From Tenacibaculum pacificus (GTDB lineage Bacteria; Bacteroidota; Bacteroidia; Flavobacteriales; Flavobacteriaceae), in NCBI RefSeq assembly GCF_027941775.1, contig NZ_CP115917.1:1-64000 (forward strand): a stretch of DNA of 64,000 bases, written 5' to 3'. Below are positions 15,906 through 62,734 of the stretch, in pieces. The stretch's first letter is position 1; the number at the start of each line of letters is the position of its first letter. The translations under genes and the position numbers were made by a program. Below the pieces are notes generated by a model. That model did no database searches and was not told where the DNA came from. It saw nothing but the letters and a program-made list of their open reading frames with translations.

Positions 15906-17108
15906 ATGAAAATACTTCACACTGCCGATTGGCATTTAGGACATCGATTACACGAACAATCGCAACTAGCAGAACAAACTTTATTTTTAAATTGGATAGA
16001 AAATTATATCATCAATGAAAAAATAGATTTGCTTTTAATTTCAGGTGATATTTTTGATAACGGTTCGCCGTCTAATCAAAGTTTAGCGATGTATTATAAT
16101 TTTTTGATAAAACTAAAATTTACCACTTGTAGCCAAATTATTATTACAGGAGGAAATCACGATTCGCCAGGAACTTTAAACGCTCCCAAAGAATTATTAA
16201 ATGCTTTATCAATAAAAGTAGTTGGTAAAGCCACCGAAAATATAGCCGATGAAGTTTTTGAAATTGATATAAATGATGAAAAAATTATCATAGCGGCTGT
16301 TCCTTATTTGCGTGATGGCGATATTAGGCGTGCCGTAGCTGGTGAATCTTTTGATGATTTAACCGATAAATATAAAAGAGCTTTAATTAATCATTATGAA
16401 TCGGCAGCAAATCAATCTGAAAAAATAAATACCAGTAATGCGCCCGTTATTGCTATGGGACATTTATTTGCTACGGGCGGTTCGGTTTCTGATAGCGAAC
16501 AAAATATTTATGTAGGAACTTTAGGGCATATCGGAGCTCAAGATTTTCCAATTTATTTTGATTATGTGGCTTTAGGACATTTACACAGACCACAAATAGT
16601 TGGAGAAAATGATAAAATTAGATATTCAGGTTCTCCAAATATTTTAAGTTTCAGTGAAATTAATTATGATAAAAAAATCATTGTTTTAGAAGTATCAGCA
16701 AATAAAATTACGAATATTGAAGATGTTATAATTCCTAATTTTAGAGAATTTTACAAACTAAAAGGAAGTATGGAAGACTGTATTTCTAAATTTCCGAGTA
16801 TTATTTCGAATTCGTATCAATTAAAACCTTGGATAGAAATTGTTTTAGATGAAGATAATACAATACAAACCGATGAATTAAAAATAAGTGCTGAAACGTA
16901 TGATTTTGAAATATTAAAAATTACCTTAAAAAATCAACGAAAAATAAAAGGAATTGAAGAATTATTAGCAGATGCTACATCAATAAAAGAATTAGTTCCT
17001 ACCGAAGTTTTTAAATTAAAATGCGAAGAGATGGATTTTGATTTAGAAGAAAATCAGCAAGTTTGGGATGCTTTTAATGAAGTTTTACAAGCAGTTAAAA
17101 ATCAATAA
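15906..17108 (+). CDS. sbcD: Exonuclease SbcCD subunit D (Mre11-type nuclease)
   Basis: This 400-residue protein has the calcineurin-like phosphoesterase motifs in order: HTADWHLGHRLHEQSQ (D8, H10), LLLISGDIFDNGSPSN, the GNHDSP motif (TGGNHDSPGTL), MGHLFATGG and VALGHLHRPQ. The ligands for two Mn ions are all present. With SbcC it forms the Mre11-Rad50-like complex that cleaves DNA hairpins and blocked double-strand ends in the cytoplasm. It precedes sbcC by 22 nt in one operon. Length and start are typical. Confidence 0.96.
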   Translation: MKILHTADWHLGHRLHEQSQLAEQTLFLNWIENYIINEKIDLLLISGDIFDNGSPSNQSLAMYYNFLIKLKFTTCSQIIITGGNHDSPGTLNAPKELLNALSIKVVGKATENIADEVFEIDINDEKIIIAAVPYLRDGDIRRAVAGESFDDLTDKYKRALINHYESAANQSEKINTSNAPVIAMGHLFATGGSVSDSEQNIYVGTLGHIGAQDFPIYFDYVALGHLHRPQIVGENDKIRYSGSPNILSFSEINYDKKIIVLEVSANKITNIEDVIIPNFREFYKLKGSMEDCISKFPSIISNSYQLKPWIEIVLDEDNTIQTDELKISAETYDFEILKITLKNQRKIKGIEELLADATSIKELVPTEVFKLKCEEMDFDLEENQQVWDAFNEVLQAVKNQ

Positions 17109-17130
17109 AAATTAATATTCTTTATTTGTT

Positions 17131-20100
17131 ATGAAAATTTTAAAGATAGTATTACAAAATATAAATTCATTAAAATCAGAAACTCCAATTGTTATCGATT
17201 TTGAAAATCAGCAATTTAAAGACGTTGGTTTATATGCTATAACAGGAGTTACAGGAGCAGGAAAAACGACCATTTTAGATGCTATTACAATTGCTTTGTA
17301 TCATAATATTCCTCGTTTTAAAGGTACAAAAGGAACTTTAATTGATGTTGTTAGTCATGGTGCAAATGATGCTTTTAGTTGTGTTACCTTCGAAAATAAT
17401 AATTTTATTTATGAAGGATATTGGGGCATACGATTAGCAAATAAAGCAGGAGTTATTTTAAAAAATCCTATTGAAACAGTTAGTTTAAAAAACTTATCGA
17501 CTGAGAAAATAATAGCAACTCAAAAAAGAAAATATATTGAAGAAGTTGAAAACGTAACGCAATTAGATTACAATCAATTTTTACGTTCTGTAATGTTGGC
17601 ACAAGGTGAATTTGCATCTTTTTTATCAGCAAAAGGTCCTGAAAAAGGAAAATTATTAGAGCAAATTACAGGCGAACAAATCTATAAAAAAATTGGCGAA
17701 GAAATTTTAAATAGAAAATCATCCGAAGAAAAAAAATTAGCAATAATTAAAGCAAAAATTAATGCTGATGATATTTTATCTAAAGAAGAAAAAGAAGAGT
17801 TATCAGAAAAATCAGCAGTTTTAATAACCGATATTGCTAAAAATGAACAAGAAATAGCAAAAATTACAGCTGTTATTAATTGGTATATAAATTATCAAAA
17901 ATTACTTGATAAAGATGTAGTTCTTGAAAAAGAAACTGAAAAACTTTCTCTTTTTATTGATGATTATAAACAAGAATTAAGTTTATTATCTTTAGATGAA
18001 AAAGCATCTCCTTTTAAAGAATTGATTCAAAATTTTAAAAGAAATGAGAAAAATATTTTTGATAAAAAGAATGAAGCTGAAAAAATAGAAAAGGAATTAA
18101 AAGAGCTTATACCTAAAATTGAAATTTTAAAAAATCAAGTTAAAAACGAAACAACAGCTTTAGAAAATACAGATAAAGAATTTAAAATTTGGTTGCCGAA
18201 ATTTGATGAAATTACAAAATTAGATGCTCAATTAAGAAATGAAATTGATATTACTTTTCAATCATCTGAAAAATTAAATGAGTTAAAAGAAGAAATTACA
18301 AATTTTGAAACTAAAAAAAATAAGCTAAAATCTGATTTAGAAAAATTAAAAGTAAACATTAAAATTGATGAAAAAAATCTAACTGAAAATAAATTTTTAT
18401 TAGAAGTTAAAAATCATATTTCTAGTTGGAATTCAGATTTAATTACTTTAAAATCATATGAAAAAACTTTAAAAGAAAATGCTTTTTTTATTGATGGAAA
18501 AAATGAAGAAGTAAAAAAAACAAAGACATCTTTAAAAGAAAAAACTGATTTTTTATCTAAAGAAAATATCGAAATTGAAAAGCTTGAAAAAGAAATTTTA
18601 GATGTAAACTCGAAATTATCAAAAAATAATATTACTGATTTATTAGCAAATCAAAATATACTTTCATCATCAGAAAATAAATGGAAAGAATTTAAAAGTT
18701 TATCCGAAGAAATTCTGAAAAATGAGAAAGAAAAAATTGAAAAAACAACTCAAAAAACTACTTTTTCAACGGAATTAATCAATTGTAAATTAGAAATTGA
18801 AAAGTTTGAAAATAATATTTCAAAACAAGAAATATCAGTTAAAGATGCCGAGAAAATTCTGAATTTAGAAAAAAGTATTGCTAATTACGAGGCCGACCGT
18901 AAAAAATTAAAAAAAGGCGAACCTTGTGGTTTATGTGGTTCAGAAGAACATCCGTTTACAGAAAATTTGGAAGTTATTGGGATTTCAGAATCTGAAAAAA
19001 TACTTATCGAAAGAAAAAATATTTTAAGAAATTTAGAAAAATCAAAAGTAGCTTTAAAGATAAAAGAAACACAATTAAATACAAATATTGAAGCTCTACA
19101 AACTCAACTAAATTCAATTTTAGAGGTTGTAAAAACCTTAAAATTAAAAGCAACAAGTTTAAATATTGATTGTGATTTAACAAATATTTCTAAAATTGAT
19201 TTTGAATTAAATTCAATATCAGAAAAAATAAAAGTACTTACTCAAAATTTAAAAGTAGCACAAGAATTACAAATTGAGAAAGATAGTTTATCTAAAAAAA
19301 TTGAATTTAAGAAAAACGAAGTAAATACACTTAAAACAGAAGTTGCAACACTCACAGAAAAAAATAAAAATGCAACAGCAGAAATAACATCCAAAGGTAA
19401 AATAACGACTGAATTAACGATTACTTGCAATAAGTTAGAAAACACTTTAAAAACTAATTTAGCCCAATTTAAGTACGAATTACCAGCTATAAATCAGGCG
19501 GATTTGTTTATCGAAAATATTGAAAAATCTGTTACTCAATACTTAAAAATTCAACAAAATTTAGAGGCTTTAAAATCCGAAGAAAAAGTAAATAATCTTG
19601 ATTTAGAAAATACTAAAAAACAAGTAGAAAATTATACAAAAACGCAAAATGAGTTTCTTCAAAAAAAATCAGCATCTGAAAATAATACGAAGCTTTTAAA
19701 AGAACAACGAAATAGTATTTTACCATCTGAAATTACTGTGGAAAAAAAGCGTGAAAATTTACAATTAAGATGTAAAGAAGCTTCAAGAAAATTGGAAGAA
19801 AGTAAAAAAGATGTTCAAAAAATATTAGAAGAAAAATCGGTAAAAGAAGCGTTAAAAGTTAAAAATAATCAAGATTTAAAAGTTTTATCGGAAGAAATAG
19901 AAAACTTAAATGTTGAATTTAATAAGCAACTTAAAAATAGTGATTTTGAATCGAAAGAAGCGATTGAAAAGGCTTTGTTATCGAAAGAAGATATTTTAAA
20001 ATTTAGCGAGAATAAAGAGAAAATCAACAAAAAACAAGTTGAATTAAAAACACTAAAAGAAGAGAATATAAAAGCAAAAGAATCTTTAAATAACTTTAAG

Positions 20101-20784
20101 AATTTTGAAATTTCAGAGGAAGATAGCAAACTAAAATTAGCCGATTTTGAACAAGAAAATAAAGATAATTTAACTGAAAAAGGTAAAATATCAGAGGCTT
20201 TTAGAAAAGACAAAGAAATAGAAGATAGAAATAAAGAAGTGTATCAAAAAATAGATGCGCAAACTAAAATTTGTAACGTTTGGAAAGAGTTATTTAAAAT
20301 TATCGGGAACTCAAAAGATGCGTTTAATGTGTATGTGCAACGTTTAACTTTAAAGCATTTATTAGACCTCGCCAATGCGCATTTGCGTAAATTGAACAAG
20401 CGTTATTCGTTAAAAATGGAAGATTTATACAAGCCAAAAGAAGAGCTTAATTTTAATTTAATTGACCATTATCAAACTGACCAATCTCGTTTGGTAGATA
20501 CTTCGAGTGGTGGCGAAAAGTTTATTATTAGTTTGGCTTTGGCGTTAGGATTATCGGATTTGGCGAGTAAAAATGTGAAAATTGATTCGCTTTTTATTGA
20601 TGAGGGTTTCGGAACTTTAGACAGCAACACGCTTGAAACGGTAATATCAACCTTAGAAACTTTACAAGCACAAGGAAAAATGATTGGGATTATATCGCAT
20701 GTTGAAAACCTGAAAGAACGTATTCCGACACAAATACAAATTACCAAAAAAAGTAATGGGGTGAGTGTTTTGGGGGTTGTGTAA
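17131..20784 (+). CDS. sbcC: Exonuclease SbcCD subunit C (Rad50-type ATPase)
   Basis: This 1217-residue protein has a Walker A (GVTGAGKTT, residues 39-47) at the N-terminus and long antiparallel coiled coils. A zinc hook of the form CGLC (C599, C602) sits in the middle. The C-terminal ABC half carries the signature SSGGEKFIISLALALGLSDL and Walker B SLFIDEGFG. It is the DNA-end-tethering ATPase partner of SbcD. Its last codons contain GGG-rich words unlike the body of the gene. The 174 nt after its stop separate it from the conflict-system island; no terminator is evident there. Confidence 0.96.
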   Translation: MKILKIVLQNINSLKSETPIVIDFENQQFKDVGLYAITGVTGAGKTTILDAITIALYHNIPRFKGTKGTLIDVVSHGANDAFSCVTFENNNFIYEGYWGIRLANKAGVILKNPIETVSLKNLSTEKIIATQKRKYIEEVENVTQLDYNQFLRSVMLAQGEFASFLSAKGPEKGKLLEQITGEQIYKKIGEEILNRKSSEEKKLAIIKAKINADDILSKEEKEELSEKSAVLITDIAKNEQEIAKITAVINWYINYQKLLDKDVVLEKETEKLSLFIDDYKQELSLLSLDEKASPFKELIQNFKRNEKNIFDKKNEAEKIEKELKELIPKIEILKNQVKNETTALENTDKEFKIWLPKFDEITKLDAQLRNEIDITFQSSEKLNELKEEITNFETKKNKLKSDLEKLKVNIKIDEKNLTENKFLLEVKNHISSWNSDLITLKSYEKTLKENAFFIDGKNEEVKKTKTSLKEKTDFLSKENIEIEKLEKEILDVNSKLSKNNITDLLANQNILSSSENKWKEFKSLSEEILKNEKEKIEKTTQKTTFSTELINCKLEIEKFENNISKQEISVKDAEKILNLEKSIANYEADRKKLKKGEPCGLCGSEEHPFTENLEVIGISESEKILIERKNILRNLEKSKVALKIKETQLNTNIEALQTQLNSILEVVKTLKLKATSLNIDCDLTNISKIDFELNSISEKIKVLTQNLKVAQELQIEKDSLSKKIEFKKNEVNTLKTEVATLTEKNKNATAEITSKGKITTELTITCNKLENTLKTNLAQFKYELPAINQADLFIENIEKSVTQYLKIQQNLEALKSEEKVNNLDLENTKKQVENYTKTQNEFLQKKSASENNTKLLKEQRNSILPSEITVEKKRENLQLRCKEASRKLEESKKDVQKILEEKSVKEALKVKNNQDLKVLSEEIENLNVEFNKQLKNSDFESKEAIEKALLSKEDILKFSENKEKINKKQVELKTLKEENIKAKESLNNFKNFEISEEDSKLKLADFEQENKDNLTEKGKISEAFRKDKEIEDRNKEVYQKIDAQTKICNVWKELFKIIGNSKDAFNVYVQRLTLKHLLDLANAHLRKLNKRYSLKMEDLYKPKEELNFNLIDHYQTDQSRLVDTSSGGEKFIISLALALGLSDLASKNVKIDSLFIDEGFGTLDSNTLETVISTLETLQAQGKMIGIISHVENLKERIPTQIQITKKSNGVSVLGVV

Positions 20785-20958
20785 TGTGGTTGGTGGTTTA
20801 TCTAAATAATTGTGTAGTTTTATAGGTGAAAAATTGAAGAAGGAAAAACTCTTCATTTACGATGTGTTTTGCATTGTTTAATGGTGGAGATGTATAGTTA
20901 AAAAATAGATATACTCTTAATAAATTATATAATAGTATGTTTTTATAAAAAAATTAGA

Positions 20959-22008
20959 ATGAAAAGAAAAATCACAGAATTCTCAGTTTTAAAAGCATAT
21001 AACGGAGATTGTATTTTAATCAAAACGTATACTTCTGATAACAATGAGTTTATTATTTTGTTAGATGGAGGAACGTCTTCTACATTTAAATATTTTTTAA
21101 AACAAGAATTAAAAAGTATTACTAAAATTGATTTATTAATCCTGACTCATATTGATTCTGACCATATAGGTGGTTTAATAAAATTATTCAAAAATTCTAT
21201 TATTGATAAAATAGAAATAGAAGAAATATGGGTAAATCATCCAGAACTTTTTGATATAAATGCAGGTGAATTAATTAGTTTTAAACAAGGGAGTGATTTA
21301 AAGAAACTCATTTTAGAGAAAAAACCAAAAGTTAGAGTTAGAAATATAACAAATGAGGATAAAGAAATTAATTTGCAGGGAATAAAATTCAAAATTCTAT
21401 CTCCTACAAAAGAAATATTAAGTTCACTATATGATAAATGGGAGCAGTTAAAACCTAATAATCAACAACAAAAAGAAAATATATCATCTAAAAATATTAC
21501 AGACTCTTATAATATTTGCTTAGAAGAGTTGAGTAAAACAAGTTTTAAACCTAATAGTCCTATAAAAAGTGATATTGTAAATGCTTCTTCAATTTCTTTC
21601 ATTTTAGATTGTTTAGATAAAAAAATATTATTCCTTGCTGATTCAAGAGCTGAAATAATTGAAGAAGAATTAAAGGCGTTAAATTACACAGTCACTAATA
21701 AACTAAATTGTGATTATGTAAAAATATCTCATCATGGTAGTAAAAACAATACTTCTAGTAGTTTATTAGAATTAATTAATTGTCCAAATTTTATTATATC
21801 TACTAATGGTGGTTCGAGTAATCATAAACATCCATCAAGAGAAACAATTGCTAGAATTGTTTATAATTCAGCTAGAAATTTTGATAATGAAGTTTCTATT
21901 TTTACAAACTATTCTTTAGAAGATATTAAAAATAAAATAGGTGATTTTATAACAGAAGTCGATTTAGAAAAAGGCAATTGGAAAATTGAATATAAAAATA
22001 AATTCTAA
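20959..22008 (+). CDS. ComEC-like metallo-beta-lactamase-fold protein (conflict island gene 1)
   Basis: This 349-residue MBL-fold protein has no signal peptide or membrane segment. The motifs resemble the hydrolase domain of ComEC: LLDGGTSS (D36), LTHIDSDHIGG (H64, D66, D68, H69), FLADSRAE (D228), SHHGS (257-261) and a late NHKHPSRETIARI. The canonical HxHxDH reads HxDxDH, so the second histidine ligand is Asp. It probably acts in the cytoplasm as a nuclease or phosphoesterase; the substrate is unknown. It starts a tight four-gene run (5, 2 and 6 nt gaps) with a protease, a small protein and an ABC ATPase. That context suggests an effector or processing enzyme of the system. A weak -7-like TATGTTTT lies at 20936-20943. 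Confidence 0.85.
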   Translation: MKRKITEFSVLKAYNGDCILIKTYTSDNNEFIILLDGGTSSTFKYFLKQELKSITKIDLLILTHIDSDHIGGLIKLFKNSIIDKIEIEEIWVNHPELFDINAGELISFKQGSDLKKLILEKKPKVRVRNITNEDKEINLQGIKFKILSPTKEILSSLYDKWEQLKPNNQQQKENISSKNITDSYNICLEELSKTSFKPNSPIKSDIVNASSISFILDCLDKKILFLADSRAEIIEEELKALNYTVTNKLNCDYVKISHHGSKNNTSSSLLELINCPNFIISTNGGSSNHKHPSRETIARIVYNSARNFDNEVSIFTNYSLEDIKNKIGDFITEVDLEKGNWKIEYKNKF

Positions 22009-22013
22009 AAAAT

Positions 22014-23129
22014 ATGATAACTGATATTTTAGAAAAATCGTGTGTTAGAATAACTATAAAAAAAGAAGGTAAAAATATAAATCAAGGAAGTGGTGTAATT
22101 ATAGTTAATGACAATAATTATTATGTACTAACCGCATTTCATTGTCTTGGTGATTCTTTACCGAATATAAAGGACATTTATATTGAAACTCAAGATGGTT
22201 ATAATTCTGAATTTAAAAATATTGATGTTCTTTCAATAGTAGATAATAGTCCTAAAAAGTATAAGGATTGGGCTCTATTAGAAATTGATTTTATTGAAGA
22301 AGTAAATAATTTAAAAGCAGTCAAATTAGGCTATGGTTTTATTAAAAAAGAAAATATTATTTTTTATGGTTATCAAGGGGTTTATAAAAATCAATTTAGA
22401 CCATTTGAAGGAAAGATTTTACAAATATCAAATGATAAATTAAATTTTCAAATTAATATTGATGGCACATTTGATCAAGGGGGTAATGAGGGTCAGTTTG
22501 TTGCTCAAGGACTTTCGGGTAGTGGAGTGTATATAATAAAAAACAAGGAACTTTTTCTAATAGGAATACTAAATGCTGTTAATACAGAAACAGCTTGGAA
22601 TGATGATATTAATTGTTGTTCGATAAAAAACTTATCTAAGGTATTTAAACATTTTCATAATATGTCTGATATAGATTTTTTAAAACAATGGGAAGAAAAC
22701 TTAGAAAAGGAAAAGACAATAAAAGATTTAGAAAATTATAAATTATTGAATAATGGTAATTTTGAGAATTTAGAAAGAAAAAACAAAGTAATTTATGATA
22801 CAGAAGAAATAGCAAATAAAAACACACAAAAACAACTTATAAAACATCTTTCTTTACAAGAAAATATTTATGATTTAGATGCTAAAAGCCCTGAATTACA
22901 TAAGAGTTTTAAAAATATTGTAAATAAATTTCAGGATGATGTTGAAGAGGAATATTCCTCTAAATTTGTAAAGGATAATAATGAAGCAAGAAAAACGAAA
23001 AGAGAATTAAAGAATCAACTAAAATATGAACTTGAAAAAGTTATTCCTAATGACATAAAATTAGATTTAGCAGATTTCCAAATAATTGAATGGTTATTAG
23101 ATTGTTCTTTAAATTTTGAAAATAGATAA
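22014..23129 (+). CDS. Trypsin-like serine protease with C-terminal helical domain (conflict island gene 2)
   Basis: This 371-residue protein has no signal peptide. Residues 1 to about 215 are a chymotrypsin-fold protease with an apparently complete triad: His43 in YVLTAFHCLGD, Asp85 in YKDWALLEI, and Ser168 (GxSG register) in QGLSGSGVYII. The C-terminal 150 residues are helical and charged, ending in FQIIEWLLDCSLNFE. That ending resembles the C-terminal domains attached to effectors of predicted ABC three-component systems. Cytoplasmic trypsin-like effectors are known in such systems by genome analysis. It sits 5 nt after the MBL gene and 2 nt before the next gene. Most likely it is the toxic or signalling effector, held inactive until the ATPase senses its trigger (inference). 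Confidence 0.85.
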   Translation: MITDILEKSCVRITIKKEGKNINQGSGVIIVNDNNYYVLTAFHCLGDSLPNIKDIYIETQDGYNSEFKNIDVLSIVDNSPKKYKDWALLEIDFIEEVNNLKAVKLGYGFIKKENIIFYGYQGVYKNQFRPFEGKILQISNDKLNFQINIDGTFDQGGNEGQFVAQGLSGSGVYIIKNKELFLIGILNAVNTETAWNDDINCCSIKNLSKVFKHFHNMSDIDFLKQWEENLEKEKTIKDLENYKLLNNGNFENLERKNKVIYDTEEIANKNTQKQLIKHLSLQENIYDLDAKSPELHKSFKNIVNKFQDDVEEEYSSKFVKDNNEARKTKRELKNQLKYELEKVIPNDIKLDLADFQIIEWLLDCSLNFENR

Positions 23130-23131
23130 TA

Positions 23132-23602
23132 ATGATTGATATTAAATTAACTTCAAAAGCTATTTCTGAACCAATAAGACATAATGCTTATTATAAATTA
23201 ATAATATTACTCGCAATAGTTAAGTATTGTTCCAATAGAAAAAAAGCATCAATACAATTAATTCATTTAGTTTTTTGGGGATTAAGAACAGAATCAAACT
23301 ATCAAGTTTTATATGATTTTTCTAAAAAAAGAAGACAAACTATTACACCTTGGTCTTTTGAAATTGGAATTGATAAAATATTAGCACTTTGTTATATAAA
23401 TAATTTTTGTGAAAAATCAATTATAATGAAAGGTAAATACTCCGATAGTTTAGAAATAAATATAACGAATGAAGGAGAGGATATTTTAAAAAAAATAGAT
23501 GATTTTAATTTATTTACAAAAGATATAATAAAAATTAAAGAATTAGGTACAATTCCTAAAAGTAGAATTATTAATGCAAATAAAAAATGGACACTTATTT
23601 AA
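23132..23602 (+). CDS. Small middle-component protein of ABC three-component type (conflict island gene 3)
   Basis: This 156-residue protein, seen directly, has a helical N-terminal half (AYYKLIILLAIVKYCSNRKK). An aromatic/basic centre (WGLRTESNYQVLYDFSKKRR) follows, then a winged-helix-like C-terminal part (LEINITNEGEDILKKID) and a basic tail. Nothing catalytic is visible. Size, position between effector and ABC ATPase, and the winged-helix hint fit the middle component of ABC-3C systems. Those proteins are thought to couple the ATPase to the effector. It is linked by 2 nt and 6 nt gaps, so it is translated with its neighbours. Family assignment is mainly from context. Confidence 0.65.
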   Translation: MIDIKLTSKAISEPIRHNAYYKLIILLAIVKYCSNRKKASIQLIHLVFWGLRTESNYQVLYDFSKKRRQTITPWSFEIGIDKILALCYINNFCEKSIIMKGKYSDSLEINITNEGEDILKKIDDFNLFTKDIIKIKELGTIPKSRIINANKKWTLI

Positions 23603-23608
23603 CTAAAT

Positions 23609-25693
23609 ATGATAAAAATAAATAGATTAAGAGCTGAAATTTTATCTAATGAAAAAAGTTCTCCCAAAGAAATTTATGGGTTTGATTATAAATTTAATAT
23701 AGGGTTAAATATAGTTGCTGGGCATAATTCAAAAGGAAAAACCACAATAAATTCTTGTATTTATTATGCTTTAGGAATGGAAGAGTTATTATTAGGTCAT
23801 AATGAAAAAGCTTTAGATAAAGCTCTCAAAGATGAATTTACAATTAAATCAGAAAAAGGCGAAGATATAAATCATAAAATAATTCGTTCTAGAGTTATTT
23901 TAGAAATTGAGAACAATGGAGTAATTGCAATTTTAACTCGAAATATTAAGGCTGGTAAAGAAAAGTTAAAACCTAATTTAATTAATGTTAAAATATCAGA
24001 GGAATCTACTATTTCTGAGGACTATTTTGTTAATGGTACAGGTAACAATGAAAGTGAAAATGGATTTTATGTCTGGTTAGCTAATTTTTGTAATATTAAT
24101 AGACCAACTGTAAGCAATACATCAAAGGTGAATGATTATAGTCCTCTTTATTTACAGATTATTTTTTCTACAATGTTTATTGAACAAACAAAAGGCTGGT
24201 CTGATTTTTTTGCAACAATGCCTTTTTTTGGTATACCAAGTGCTAAACAAAAAAATGTTGAGTTTTTATTAAACCTTAATGAATTAGAGCTTTCAACTAA
24301 AAAAGATGTTTTATCAAAAGAAGAGAAACAACTATCAGAAAAATGGATTAAAACGATTAAATCTTTCGATATTATATCTAAACAATTTAATGGATCGTTT
24401 AATGAATTGCCAAATAATTTGACGGTAGATAGGTCTAAAATTGATGATATACATATTTTATTTTCAGTTTCAGAAACTGAAAAAATTTCACTAGATAAAT
24501 ATTTAAAATCTCAAAAAAACACATTTAATACTTTAAAAAATAAACCGATATCTAAAATTGGAAAGAATAAAAAAGAACTACTTGTAAAGTATCAAGAAAA
24601 AGAGAAAGAATATTTTAAATTAAAAGAATACATTAAGGATTTTGCAGGCAAATTGGCTGTTGAAAATATTCAGTTAAGTAATTTAAAGAAACAGTTTGAA
24701 AGAATAACTAAAGAAATTCTAGATCAAAATAATTTAAAAAAAGTATTTAGTAAAAATATTCTAAATAAAAAAGGAAATCATTGTCCAACATGTTCTCAAA
24801 CTGTATCAACAGATTTACTTTCAAATACAGATATTGAGATACCGATATTAAGTATTGAAGAAAATATAGCTTTCTTAAAAGGGCAAAAAAAAATGATTGA
24901 AACGTCTTCAAAGTCATTAGAGGTTTCGACATCAGAAAAAAAATTACTATTACAGTATTTTAAAGAAAATTTAAGACAAAAAGAATCTTTAATAAAATCA
25001 CTATCAAGAGATTTAATTGCAGATGATAGAACATTTTCAGAAGCTGAAATTTTAAAAAAATTACAACTAGAAAAAGAAATTGAAAATCTTTTATTTTTAG
25101 AACTAAAGATTACAGAATTAAAAAATGAATTAATTGATTTATTAAATAAATATATAAATAATAAAAATGCGTATGAAAATTTAAATGATTCTGAAATTGA
25201 AGATGAAAATAAATTAATTAATTTTGAGAAAAAATATAAAAACTTGCTTTATAAATTTGGTTACGACAGTAATTCTGATAAATGGAAAATATCTATAAAT
25301 AGAAAAGAACCATTTAAATACTTTCCTGTTTATAGAGCTTATAAATCAGAAATACCTCAATCAATTAGGATAAATTCTTCTGCTTCTGATTTTGTAAGGA
25401 ATATTTGGGCTTATACCTTATCATTACTTGAAGTAGGAAGTAATCATCCTGGTTTAGTTATTTTTGATGAACCTGGTCAGCATAGAACTAATATTAGTAG
25501 TTTGAAATCTTTATTTAAAGAGTCTTCAGAGATAAAAAATAAACAAATAATTATTTTCACTTCAATAGATAAAGAAATTAATGATAAAGAAAAATTAGAA
25601 ATTAAAATATTGACAGAAGATTTAAATAGTGAGAATTATCATTTAATTGAATTAGATAAAACAAATAAAGTAATACAAAAACTTACAAAATAG
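23609..25693 (+). CDS. Rad50/SMC-like ABC ATPase (conflict island gene 4)
   Basis: This 694-residue protein has an N-terminal Walker A, GHNSKGKTT (residues 38-46). About 200 residues of ATPase head follow, then a coiled-coil arm that reverses at a zinc-hook-like CPTC (C392, C395). The second half carries a degenerate signature (SSASDFVRNIWAYTLSLLE, about 588-606) and Walker B GLVIFDEPG (615-623). The arms are much shorter than in SbcC. It is expected to sense or bind DNA or a phage-related structure and license the effector. The DEP Walker B and the missing canonical SGGE signature fit the conflict-system ABC clade rather than true SbcC. It is the last gene of the island; mfd follows with its own promoter. 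Confidence 0.85.
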   Translation: MIKINRLRAEILSNEKSSPKEIYGFDYKFNIGLNIVAGHNSKGKTTINSCIYYALGMEELLLGHNEKALDKALKDEFTIKSEKGEDINHKIIRSRVILEIENNGVIAILTRNIKAGKEKLKPNLINVKISEESTISEDYFVNGTGNNESENGFYVWLANFCNINRPTVSNTSKVNDYSPLYLQIIFSTMFIEQTKGWSDFFATMPFFGIPSAKQKNVEFLLNLNELELSTKKDVLSKEEKQLSEKWIKTIKSFDIISKQFNGSFNELPNNLTVDRSKIDDIHILFSVSETEKISLDKYLKSQKNTFNTLKNKPISKIGKNKKELLVKYQEKEKEYFKLKEYIKDFAGKLAVENIQLSNLKKQFERITKEILDQNNLKKVFSKNILNKKGNHCPTCSQTVSTDLLSNTDIEIPILSIEENIAFLKGQKKMIETSSKSLEVSTSEKKLLLQYFKENLRQKESLIKSLSRDLIADDRTFSEAEILKKLQLEKEIENLLFLELKITELKNELIDLLNKYINNKNAYENLNDSEIEDENKLINFEKKYKNLLYKFGYDSNSDKWKISINRKEPFKYFPVYRAYKSEIPQSIRINSSASDFVRNIWAYTLSLLEVGSNHPGLVIFDEPGQHRTNISSLKSLFKESSEIKNKQIIIFTSIDKEINDKEKLEIKILTEDLNSENYHLIELDKTNKVIQKLTK

Positions 25694-25762
25694 TAAATAA
25701 AGCAATTCATCGAATGTAGGTCTATGTTTTAAAATGAGTTTCACTCAAAAAAATAAACCACG

Positions 25763-25787: not shown

Positions 25788-28700
25788 TTGAGCAAACAAT
25801 TGATTGTAAACCATTACCAACAATCTGATACTATCAAACAGATTGTTAAAGAGCTTCAACAAGAACAAAACCACTTTCAAATATCGAATTTGGTTGGTTC
25901 TTCGTTGTCTTTTGTTATTTCTGAAACTTTTAAAAAAGCCGAAAAACCCTATTTATTAATTTTTAATGATAAGGAAGAAGCAGCTTATTATTTAAACGAT
26001 TTAGAGCAATTATTAGGGGATAAAAATGTGTTGTTTTATCCAGGTTCGTATCGCCGACCTTATCAGATTGAAGAAACCGATAATGCCAATGTTTTGTTGC
26101 GTTCAGAGGTTTTAAATCGAATTAATTCAAGAAGAAAACCCGCTGTTATTGTAACATATCCAACAGCGTTGTTTGAAAAAGTAGTCACCAAAAAAGAACT
26201 CGATAAAAATACTTTAAAAATTAAAGTTGGCGAAAATGTATCTCCCGATTTTGTAAACGAAGTATTGTTTGAATATCATTTTAATCGAGTAGATTTTGTT
26301 ACTGAACCTGGTGATTTTTCAGTTCGTGGTGGAATTATTGACATTTTTTCATTTTCGAATGATGAACCTTATCGAATGGAGTTTTTTGGCGATGAAGTAG
26401 AAAGCATCCGAACTTTTGATGTGGAAACGCAATTATCAAAAGAAAAACATCAAAAAATAAGTATTATGCCCAATGTAGAAAACAAAGGGCTACAAGAAAA
26501 TAGAGAAAGTTTTTTAAAATATATATCGGCTAAAACAGCAATTTTTGTAAAAGATATAACCACAATCAAAACAAATTTAGATACGTTTTTTAAAAAAGCT
26601 GAACTTTCATTTGATGAATTATCAAAAGAAATAAAACGTTCGAAACCATCCGAATTATTTTGTGATGGTGCTTTAATTCAACAAGAATTACAACAATTTA
26701 CTACGGTAAATATGAGTAAATCTAGTATCAAAAATGTAACAAATATTACTTTTGATACAACTGCACAGCCATCTTTTAATAAAAAATTCGATTTGTTAAT
26801 TCAGAATTTTAATGAATTTTCAGCAAAAGGATTTACCAATTATATTTTTTGTTCTAACGATAAACAGGCACAACGTTTTCATGATATTTTTGATGATAAT
26901 GATGCCGAAGTATCTTATGAAACCATTGTTTTTCCTTTGTATCAGGGATTTGTTGATAATCAAAATAAAATTGTTTGTTATACTGACCATCAAATATTTG
27001 AGCGTTATTATAAATTTCGCTTAAAAAATGGCTATGAAAAAAAGCAATCCATCACTTTACAAGAACTTACCAGATTAGAAATTGGCGATTATGTAACACA
27101 TATCGATCATGGAATTGGAAAATTTGGCGGGCTTCAAAAAATTGATGTAGAAGGAAAAAAACAAGAAGCAATTAAGTTAATTTATGGCGATAGAGATATT
27201 TTATATGTAAGTATTCACTCGTTACATAAAATTTCAAAGTTTAACGGAAAAGATGGAAAACCACCTAAAATATATAAATTAGGTTCGGGTGCTTGGAAGA
27301 AAGTAAAGCAAAAAACAAAGGCTCGAGTTAAACATATTGCGTTTAATTTAATTCAATTATACGCTAAAAGAAAATTACAAAAAGGCTACGCTTTTGCTCC
27401 TGATACGCATATGCAACATGAGTTGGAAGCAAGTTTTATTTATGAAGATACGCCTGATCAATTTACATCAACTCAAGATGTGAAAAATGATATGGAAAAA
27501 CCGCAACCCATGGATAGATTGGTTTGTGGTGATGTTGGTTTTGGAAAAACAGAAGTAGCAATTCGTGCAGCTTTTAAAGCTGTCGATAACGGAAAACAAG
27601 TAGCTGTTTTAGTGCCTACAACTATTTTAGCGTTTCAACATTTTAAAACTTTTACCGAGCGTTTAAAAGATTTTCCTGTTACGGTTGATTATTTAAATCG
27701 ATTTAGAACGGTAAAACAACGAAATACTGTTTTAGAAGGTGTTGCAAATGGAAGTGTAGATATTGTAATCGGAACGCATCAATTAACTAATAAAAAACTG
27801 CAATTCAAAAATTTAGGATTGTTAGTTATTGATGAAGAACAAAAGTTTGGAGTTGCCGTAAAAGACAAGTTAAAAACCATCAAAGAAAATGTAGATACGC
27901 TTACTTTAACAGCCACGCCAATACCAAGAACCCTACAATTTAGTTTGATGGCAGCCAGAGATTTATCAGTAATAAAAACAGCACCACCAAATCGTCATCC
28001 TATTGAAACCAATGTCATCCGCTTTAGCGAAGAAACTATTCGAGATGCTATTTCTTATGAAATTTCTCGTGGAGGACAAGTGTTTTTTATCCATAATAGA
28101 ATCGAAAATATTAAGGAAGTAGCAGGTTTATTACAACGTTTAGTTCCGAATGCTAAAATTGGTATCGGTCATGGACAAATGGAAGGTAAAAAGTTAGAAG
28201 AATTGATGCTCGGTTTTATGAATAATGAGTTTGATGTATTGGTATCAACCACCATTATTGAAAGCGGATTGGACGTGCCAAATGCCAATACTATTTTTAT
28301 CAACAATGCGAATAACTTCGGTTTGTCAGATTTACACCAAATGCGTGGTCGTGTAGGTCGTTCGAACAAAAAAGCGTTCTGTTATTTTATTACGCCAGCT
28401 TATCATATGATGACTACTGATGCGAGAAAACGTATCGAGGCTTTAGAATTATTTTCAGAATTAGGAAGCGGTTTAAATATCGCCATGAAAGATTTAGAAA
28501 TTCGTGGAGCTGGAGATTTATTAGGAGGTGAACAAAGCGGATTTATTAATGATATTGGGTTTGAAACTTATCAGAAAATACTACAAGAAGCTATTGAAGA
28601 ATTGAAAGAAAATGAGTTTAAAGAATTATATGTTACGGATGAAAATACACCGAAAGAATATGTAAAAGATGTACAAATTGAAACAGATTTTGAAATTCTT

Positions 28701-29120
28701 ATTCCTGATGCTTACGTAAATTCGGTAACTGAAAGATTAAGTTTATATAATGATTTAGGAAACTTAACAAAAGAAGAAGAGTTATTAACATTTGAAAGTC
28801 AAATTGTTGATAGGTTTGGCGAATATCCGCCAGAAGTACAAGATTTATTAGACAGCGTTCGCATAAAATGGTTGGCGAAAGAGTTAGGACTTGAAAAAAT
28901 CATATTAAAACAAAAACGCTTATTAGGATATTTTATATCTGATCAACAAAGTTCATTTTATGAAACCGAAGCGTTTACAAAGACGTTACAATATGTACAA
29001 CAAAATCCGAAAAGTTGTGTAATGAAAGAGAAAGATACTAAAAATGGAAAAAGATTATTAGTTACTTTTATTCGAATTGATTCGGTAAAAACAGCTTTAA
29101 ATTTATTACAAAAAATATAA
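25788..29120 (+). CDS. mfd: Transcription-repair coupling factor Mfd
   Basis: This 1110-residue protein has the full Mfd order. A UvrB-homology region (about 1-350) is followed by the RNA polymerase interaction domain (IGDYVTHIDHGIGKFGGLQK). The translocase comes next, with Walker A GDVGFGKTE (from residue 581) and the DEEQ box (682-685, LLVIDEEQKFG). The TATPIPRTL motif, DVLVSTTIIESGLDVPNANT, QMRGRVGRSN and a C-terminal inhibitory domain complete it. It displaces RNA polymerase stalled at lesions and recruits UvrA. The start codon is TTG, chosen because it follows the -7 element and gives the N-terminus MSKQLIVNHY. It is probably co-transcribed with the broken hydrolase gene 1 nt downstream. 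Confidence 0.97.
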   Translation: MSKQLIVNHYQQSDTIKQIVKELQQEQNHFQISNLVGSSLSFVISETFKKAEKPYLLIFNDKEEAAYYLNDLEQLLGDKNVLFYPGSYRRPYQIEETDNANVLLRSEVLNRINSRRKPAVIVTYPTALFEKVVTKKELDKNTLKIKVGENVSPDFVNEVLFEYHFNRVDFVTEPGDFSVRGGIIDIFSFSNDEPYRMEFFGDEVESIRTFDVETQLSKEKHQKISIMPNVENKGLQENRESFLKYISAKTAIFVKDITTIKTNLDTFFKKAELSFDELSKEIKRSKPSELFCDGALIQQELQQFTTVNMSKSSIKNVTNITFDTTAQPSFNKKFDLLIQNFNEFSAKGFTNYIFCSNDKQAQRFHDIFDDNDAEVSYETIVFPLYQGFVDNQNKIVCYTDHQIFERYYKFRLKNGYEKKQSITLQELTRLEIGDYVTHIDHGIGKFGGLQKIDVEGKKQEAIKLIYGDRDILYVSIHSLHKISKFNGKDGKPPKIYKLGSGAWKKVKQKTKARVKHIAFNLIQLYAKRKLQKGYAFAPDTHMQHELEASFIYEDTPDQFTSTQDVKNDMEKPQPMDRLVCGDVGFGKTEVAIRAAFKAVDNGKQVAVLVPTTILAFQHFKTFTERLKDFPVTVDYLNRFRTVKQRNTVLEGVANGSVDIVIGTHQLTNKKLQFKNLGLLVIDEEQKFGVAVKDKLKTIKENVDTLTLTATPIPRTLQFSLMAARDLSVIKTAPPNRHPIETNVIRFSEETIRDAISYEISRGGQVFFIHNRIENIKEVAGLLQRLVPNAKIGIGHGQMEGKKLEELMLGFMNNEFDVLVSTTIIESGLDVPNANTIFINNANNFGLSDLHQMRGRVGRSNKKAFCYFITPAYHMMTTDARKRIEALELFSELGSGLNIAMKDLEIRGAGDLLGGEQSGFINDIGFETYQKILQEAIEELKENEFKELYVTDENTPKEYVKDVQIETDFEILIPDAYVNSVTERLSLYNDLGNLTKEEELLTFESQIVDRFGEYPPEVQDLLDSVRIKWLAKELGLEKIILKQKRLLGYFISDQQSSFYETEAFTKTLQYVQQNPKSCVMKEKDTKNGKRLLVTFIRIDSVKTALNLLQKI

Positions 29121-29121
29121 T

Positions 29122-29683
29122 ATGGCATCAATATTTGGTCATGCAATTGCTGCTTTAGCACTTGGAAAAGGGTTTTCGAAAACAATAGTAAATTGGAAGT
29201 TTCTTTTACTTGGCGTTATTTGTTCGGTATTACCAGATGCTGATGTAATCGGTTTTAGCTTTGGAATTAAATATGAAAGTTTTTGGGGACATCGAGGATT
29301 TTCGCATTCGTTACTTTTTGCTTTAATTATTGGGGTTTTAATTACAACTATTTTTTACAGAAAAGATTTAGTGTCTAAAAAAGGAATAACTTTTATATTT
29401 TTTTACAATATGTACAGCATCTCATGCTGTTTTAGATGCTTTAACAACAGGAGGTTTAGGAGTTGCATTTTTTTCTCCTTTTGATACGACACGTTATTTT
29501 TTTCCGTGGCGACCTATAAAAGTTTCCCCCATTGGTGTGGAACGTTTTTTTGGTGAAAGAGGTATTAAAGTATTAAAAAGTGAGTTCCTTTGGATAGGAA
29601 TTCCGAGTGTTTTATATGTATTAATTATTCAATATTTTAAAAGAATAAAATCAACAAAATTAAAAATAAACAATGGAGAATAA
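29122..29683 (+). pseudogene. Membrane-bound metal-dependent hydrolase (YdjM type), frameshifted
   Basis: The first frame runs from ATG 29122 and encodes the family's N-terminus: IFGHAIAALALGKG, then CSVLPDADVIGF, then WGHRGFSHSLLFALIIG. It leaves register in a run of seven T at 29398-29404. After loss of one T the other frame continues the same protein (TICTASHAVLDALTTGGLG, SPFDTTRYFFPWRPIKVSP) to a TAA at 29681-29683, overlapping the next gene by 11 nt. The repaired product would be about 186 residues. The HGxxHS, DxD and HAxxDxxT metal motifs of the YdjM/DUF457 family are all present across the two frames. Hence a recent lesion, a sequencing error, or slippage. Confidence 0.8.
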
Positions 29684-62640: not shown

Positions 62641-62734
62641 GATATCTCTAGCCCTGATTGAAGCAATTGTTTGAGCTCCTTTTTTGATTTTTTTCAAAAA
62701 AGAGCGAGTGCGGAAAGCAGGAAATAGCTTCAAA
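62641..62734 (+). ncRNA. Candidate structured non-coding RNA (Flavo-1-like?)
   Basis: The segment folds by eye. An outer helix joins AGC-CCTG (62650-62656) to CAGG-AAAT-AGCT (62718-62729). An inner helix pairs GCTCCTTTTTTGA (62675-62687, one bulge) with TCAAAAAAGAGC (62694-62705). The GC-rich paired parts stand out from AT-rich surroundings. The word pattern recalls a flavobacterial conserved RNA such as Rfam Flavo-1, but I cannot confirm the family. It lies between rnpA and an acyl-CoA dehydrogenase gene and might be a 5' leader element of the latter. Orientation is assumed. Confidence 0.4.

Follow-up and report, generated by a model that had tools for sequence, protein, structure and literature searches.

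Four genes between sbcC and mfd

The window (the whole stretch of 64,000 nucleotides from Tenacibaculum pacificus that was analysed) carries four open reading frames on the forward strand, separated by gaps of 5, 2 and 6 nt in the ORF list; the coordinates and gaps given in an earlier note on this DNA, made from the letters alone, were all reproduced. The first gene (positions 20959..22008, 349 aa) encodes an MBL-fold protein, a predicted ComEC-like pro-nuclease with a ComEC fold match, which matched the PADLOC LmuA profile PDLC03854 (2.5e-92) and Pfam Lactamase_B (4.4e-14). The second (22014..23129, 371 aa) encodes LmuA, a trypsin-like protease (H43, D85, S170) followed by a C-terminal tether domain, with matches to PADLOC PDLC03855 (1.7e-37) and Pfam PF00089 (22.1 bits, cut-off 20.6), PF13365 staying below its cut-off (23.9 versus 27.6 bits). 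The small middle component LmuC (23132..23602, 156 aa; PDLC03871, 1.9e-5) and the short-armed Rad50/SMC-like ATPase LmuB (23609..25693, 694 aa; PDLC03863, 6.3e-77) complete the operon. The MBL fold, the trypsin-like protease and the Rad50-like ABC ATPase named in the earlier note thus all held.

The operon is flanked by sbcD/sbcC-like genes (15906-20784) and by mfd (25788-29120), the names being those of the earlier note; mfd was matched in 58 of the 59 genomes searched (own genome included), a tally that takes in helicase paralogues. The proposal that these neighbours have separate promoters gained no backing from a promoter and terminator scan of the window, which gave chance-level results only (41 promoter-like sites versus 41.4 in shuffles).

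Assignment to the Lamassu family

All four genes match PADLOC Lamassu profiles, and the operon is a Lamassu system of the hydrolase-protease kind, within the ABC-3C superfamily; the four genes and their order in that kind are those of the window. "Hydrolase-protease" is, we take it, the subtype name belonging to the PADLOC LmuA profiles PDLC03854 and PDLC03855. The earlier note had called the island an ABC-3C-type defence system, and had named the lack of an ABC-3C profile match in the small protein or the protease C-terminus as counting against this. Taken literally, that is what was found: the Pfam ABC-3C domains (MC and CTD) were absent from the four window proteins up to E 1, so that by the Pfam definition the operon differs from ABC-3C systems, and the profiles that did match were those for Lamassu in PADLOC. 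In outline the claim stood, since the operon shares a superfamily and a common plan with the ABC-3C systems, has a related ATPase, and resembles four plasmid MBL and protease operons with the identical four-gene plan that are annotated as ABC-three component. The label was close because ABC-3C, DdmABC and Lamassu are placed in one Lamassu superfamily in the pertinent section of a review (PMC10586767). That view agrees with profile matches at two loci: at L123 the partner proteins match Pfam CTD9 and MC5 and the ATPase matches the LmuB profile of the window (8.1e-47), and at L129, one of the plasmid operons annotated as ABC-three component (CTD4 and MComp1), all four genes match PADLOC Lamassu profiles.

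The plasmid relatives (CTD4/MC1) differ from the window in that their versions have no detectable match to its tether domain or LmuC, and the ATPase of L129 is 1059 aa long compared with 694 aa. Nuclease-type Lamassu (LmuA PDLC03852) has in common with the window the LmuB and LmuC families and the LmuA C-terminal domain, but its LmuA N-terminus resembles a PD-(D/E)XK nuclease (as read from the alignment) and no MBL gene adjoins it. In Hachiman and AVAST type 1 pairs, as they are described in parts of PMC12799240, an MBL gene lies directly upstream of a trypsin-like protease gene and the MBL protein has two disordered loops, both as in the window (the loops in the MBL model); the protease there is fused to HamA or a STAND NTPase, whereas that of the window is fused to a Lamassu tether. 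AVAST type 1 itself was rejected as an assignment, with scores far below the cut-offs (Avs1a 188.6 bits versus 420, Avs1b 14.2 versus 1500), no STAND domain, and a protease protein of just 371 aa.

A recent mobile insertion

The operon is a mobile insertion that was acquired recently. In G008, a close Tenacibaculum relative with 95% identity in the mfd protein, the insert is absent and 50 bp lie between the stop of sbcC and the start of mfd; relative to this empty site the inserted stretch covers approximately 20786..25746 on the forward strand, the edges being the ends of the blastn alignments. No clear target-site duplication was found at these edges, the best shared words having 6 bases. 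In T. finnmarkense (G018) the operon occupies the same sbcC-mfd site, and its genes are far more alike (MBL 99.8%, protease 99.9%, LmuC 100% and LmuB 98.4% nucleotide identity) than the flanks (sbcD 90.6%, sbcC 90.1%, mfd 92.7%). Identity is 92.0% in the intergenic gap on the left of the operon and 98.9% in that on its right, which places the beginning of the highly similar block near the MBL gene. The operon likewise lies between sbcC and mfd in T. finnmarkense TNO006 (L050).

Among 166 genomes of the genus, LmuB was matched in eight (own included), in two of them over just 34-36 residues, and the MBL protein in 11, six of these weakly (E 8e-20 or poorer). Nuclease and ATPase genes stand side by side in five: the own genome, G018, G464, G367 and G471. 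The wider set of LmuB loci used below overlaps with the genus genomes in three cases (L049 = G018, L059 = G367, L069 = G026). The comparison of relatives proposed in the earlier note thus came out in favour of its cargo position, the operon not being a core element of the genus. Of 30 mfd loci with 1.5 kb flanks, two carried LmuB (own and G018), one had sbcC directly alongside (G008) and 27 had neither, so the sbcC-mfd adjacency is itself restricted to close relatives.

LmuA as a natural chimera

The catalytic triad H43, D85 and S170 of LmuA is intact, both in the alignment and in chymotrypsin-fold matches of the structure model, and the best 50 matches listed in a fold search of that model were serine proteases or proteins containing such a domain; the Arcobacter relative L064 has no aligned catalytic Asp. 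The tether domain (22674..23126, forward strand, residues 221-371) is helical in the model, has its homologue in the C-terminal domain of nuclease-type LmuA, and ends in the C-terminal motif WLLDCSLNF (23091-23117, forward strand). LmuA and LmuC were recovered in 74 of 80 LmuB loci, the other six being left out of the motif count, and LmuA ended in W[ILVMFA]xxCxxx[FYLI], a pattern composed after sight of the sequences, in 68 of the 74. The six loci without this motif are L122-L127; L123, the one covered by a scan for CTD9/MC5, was shown to be of that type. An MBL gene lies beside LmuA in 16 loci, in all of which the protease is the motif-bearing protein and the order is MBL-protease-LmuC-LmuB, an arrangement beyond chance; at the 58 other recovered loci LmuA has no detected MBL neighbour. 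Judged by these sequence features, LmuA is the protease rather than the MBL protein.

In profile comparisons, the tethers of 15 protease-type and 52 nuclease-type LmuA proteins matched one another (99.43%, E 7.8e-22), whereas their N-termini are unrelated (0.11%). The reverse was seen against five plasmid CTD4-type proteins, where the protease domains matched (99.08%, E 1.2e-18) and the C-terminal domains did not (0.19%); the tether likewise had no profile match to the CTD4 or CTD9 sets, which are small (5 and 6 sequences). With a head that matches CTD4-type operons and a tether that matches nuclease-type Lamassu, LmuA of the window is, by these profile matches, a natural chimera of the protease head of other ABC-3C-type systems and a nuclease-type Lamassu tether. 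Sequence searches of LmuA, nuclease-type LmuA and LmuC against solved structures gave weak unrelated matches or none. For protease relatives, 72 pattern matches in viral contigs yielded none that was confirmed, and tblastn at 1e-5 found none in plasmids, although the profile search did find them there beside MBL matches.

LmuC and LmuB

PADLOC support for LmuC is modest (1.9e-5); in a profile comparison it matched LmuC of the nuclease-type loci (99.84%, E 4.1e-30), and the MC1 and MC5 sets gave no profile match (small sets of 5 and 6 sequences). The PADLOC LmuC profile that fits the MC1-type L129 at 3.8e-31 matches LmuC of the window at 0.014. LmuB contains, on the forward strand, Walker A (23720-23746), a CPTC hook (24782-24793) and Walker B (25457-25474) sequence motifs; the Walker A G/K, the CxxC hook and the Walker B D/E are invariant in four of four aligned LmuB proteins. 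A tree of LmuB with 71 rows puts all 17 MBL-protease systems together in a single group, with support 97, and none of 500 label shuffles came out as low. The tree was built by a quick method with long branches flagged (for example, L141 and L064), and is consistent with a single acquisition within the lineage.

The MBL protein and its candidate gate loops

The model of the MBL protein (mean pLDDT 83.4, pTM 0.87) has the ComEC MBL domain 9ic4 as its best fold match (E 6.7e-12, TM 0.53 on the model). All 15 aligned MBL proteins and all 14 plasmid relatives share residues H64, D66, D68, H69, D228, H258 and H259, and eight of these 14 relatives also keep the H291 column. Two segments of at least three residues, and no other, have pLDDT below 50: residues 99-107 (predicted gate loop 1; 21253..21279, forward strand), which include Ile106 (codon 21274-21276), and residues 166-183 (predicted gate loop 2; 21454..21507, forward strand), which include Ile175. 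According to the portions of PMC12799240 on Hachiman and AVAST, the homologous MBL protein is a protease-activated pro-nuclease with two disordered insertions, and the partner protease cuts at conserved isoleucines within them; homologues are described there as DNA-specific nucleases, and the extension of the model to Lamassu is a proposal of its authors. By analogy with these systems, and from the model loops, the role of terminal effector probably falls to the MBL protein, which would be a pro-nuclease opened by the protease; less probably it is the processor or independent second effector that the earlier note had suggested.

All 15 aligned MBL proteins have Ile106, with Ser or Thr after it. 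Loop 2 contains an I[ST] pair in 14 of the 15 proteins. The base rate of such pairs is 0.49, as 49% of equally long segments from other parts of these proteins have one, and in L055, one of the 14, the pair sits elsewhere in the loop 2 region, so the loop 2 pattern is no more than suggestive. Among 14 plasmid relatives the residue aligned in loop 1 is Ile in four and Thr, Met, Val, Phe or Leu in the others; an Ile cut site is therefore not general.

These relatives came from 67 plasmid records with MBL matches, of which 17 neighbourhoods (three without listed genes) were examined and 16 taken into the protease profile scan, L162 being left out. A trypsin-like domain was present in the gene adjoining the MBL relative at 10 of the 16 loci, fused to CTD4-type, STAND-like, HamA or other parts; none was found at the remaining six, which include L143 and L144, both without a Pfam scan. 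On a Bradyrhizobium plasmid (L138, 3287-9570) an MBL relative lies near caspase-family and S8 peptidase genes on the other strand, an arrangement that resembles published caspase-nuclease loci. On a Runella plasmid (L134, 1757-7035) three MBL-fold genes occur within 5.3 kb, the last adjoining a large serine protease gene.

Proposed mechanism and alternatives

The identity and order of the genes, their catalytic residues, the homology of the tether, the two loops of low confidence and the recent mobility were computed here. With a probability of roughly 0.8 in our estimate, they are best explained as a whole by a Lamassu anti-phage or anti-plasmid operon in which a sensor-released protease opens a ComEC-like MBL nuclease. 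The steps from sensing through release, oligomerisation and cleavage to DNA degradation are inferred from published relatives. LmuB and LmuC would keep the LmuA protease inactive through its C-terminal tether domain, in line with the docking of the LmuA C-terminus suggested in PMC10586767. On sensing of foreign or abnormal DNA, LmuA would be released and would oligomerise into an active protease; the liberation of LmuA and formation of a tetramer are reported in the addendum PMC12409362. LmuA would then cut the two disordered loops that presumably block the MBL active site, the likeliest positions being after Ile106 and close to Ile175. The opened nuclease would degrade DNA, ending in failure of the phage or plasmid and in arrest or death of the cell.

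If instead the protease released by LmuB and LmuC itself killed, by cutting host or phage proteins, the MBL protein would be an independent second effector or a regulator, a reading close to that of the earlier note. The intact triad positions of the window protease would suit this, as would other LmuA types that act directly as effectors according to PMC10586767; yet the protease is paired with an MBL gene in all 16 loci of the lineage, and the homologous protease of Hachiman cut its MBL partner and none of the other proteins tried in the experiments described in the relevant part of PMC12799240, and we regard such a role as unlikely. A further alternative gives the MBL protein a substrate other than DNA, such as a nucleotide signal, whose hydrolysis would limit the response or set its timing. 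The protein has similarity, weak and below the cut-off, to Apyc1 (Pfam 0.013; PDB 7u2r, 6.6e-4), but the ComEC domain matches its fold best, and its homologues are the DNA-specific nucleases mentioned above (PMC12799240), which makes this alternative very unlikely. Hardly any weight falls on the idea that the genes are ordinary housekeeping DNA repair genes linked to sbcCD and mfd: their position and the weak match of the SbcC-like neighbour to LmuB profiles (6e-12) are set against the presence of both genes in just five of 166 genus genomes, the empty G008 site, gene identity far above that of the flanks, and Lamassu profile matches for all four genes. A core repair function is ruled out by the empty site and the sparse distribution.

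For the preferred reading, a protease-opened nuclease, the gated mechanism has been shown in Hachiman and AVAST and modelled for Lamassu, as set out in sections of PMC12799240. The operon offers a compact test case for it, with named candidate cleavage positions. Among the titles listed in a search of open-licence PubMed Central, a scope outside which subscription papers and preprints fall, none announced a test of the Lamassu nuclease-protease pair; one paper mentions both Tenacibaculum and Lamassu.

Tether exchange between two strains

In the protease gene (window 22014-23126 compared with TNO006 L050:4409-5518), five codons differ up to residue 123 and none in residues 124-220, whereas the stretch from residue 221 onward has 59 differing codons, of which 22 are synonymous, 36 non-synonymous and one an insertion/deletion. 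LmuC has 13 differing codons, while 150-bp bins of the MBL and LmuB genes are 95-100% identical. The tether of TNO006 is a diverged allele in an operon that is almost the same elsewhere. The breakpoint coincides with the protease/tether boundary in the LmuA model (strand 199-203, helices from 220), and the many synonymous changes in the tether are better explained by recombination than by selection alone. That the LmuA tether and LmuC form an exchangeable allelic block is a tentative reading of this one strain pair, and we consider it unlikely; if true, recombination would tune docking or the trigger independently of the effectors, to counter phage inhibitors, for instance. An exchange of the tether between two Tenacibaculum strains that breaks at the domain boundary may be new.

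Other observations

Behind mfd, a 120-residue open reading frame (window 29122-29484) is similar to two relatives, L018 and L028, up to residue 95 and no further, suggesting a change of frame in the window at that point. In another genome of the genus (G028:C1:2507324-2510703) mfd is listed as two overlapping pieces with an in-frame TAG in each. A Flavo-1 RNA was located at 62646-62728 of the window, its score of 48.5 bits being above the Rfam gathering score.
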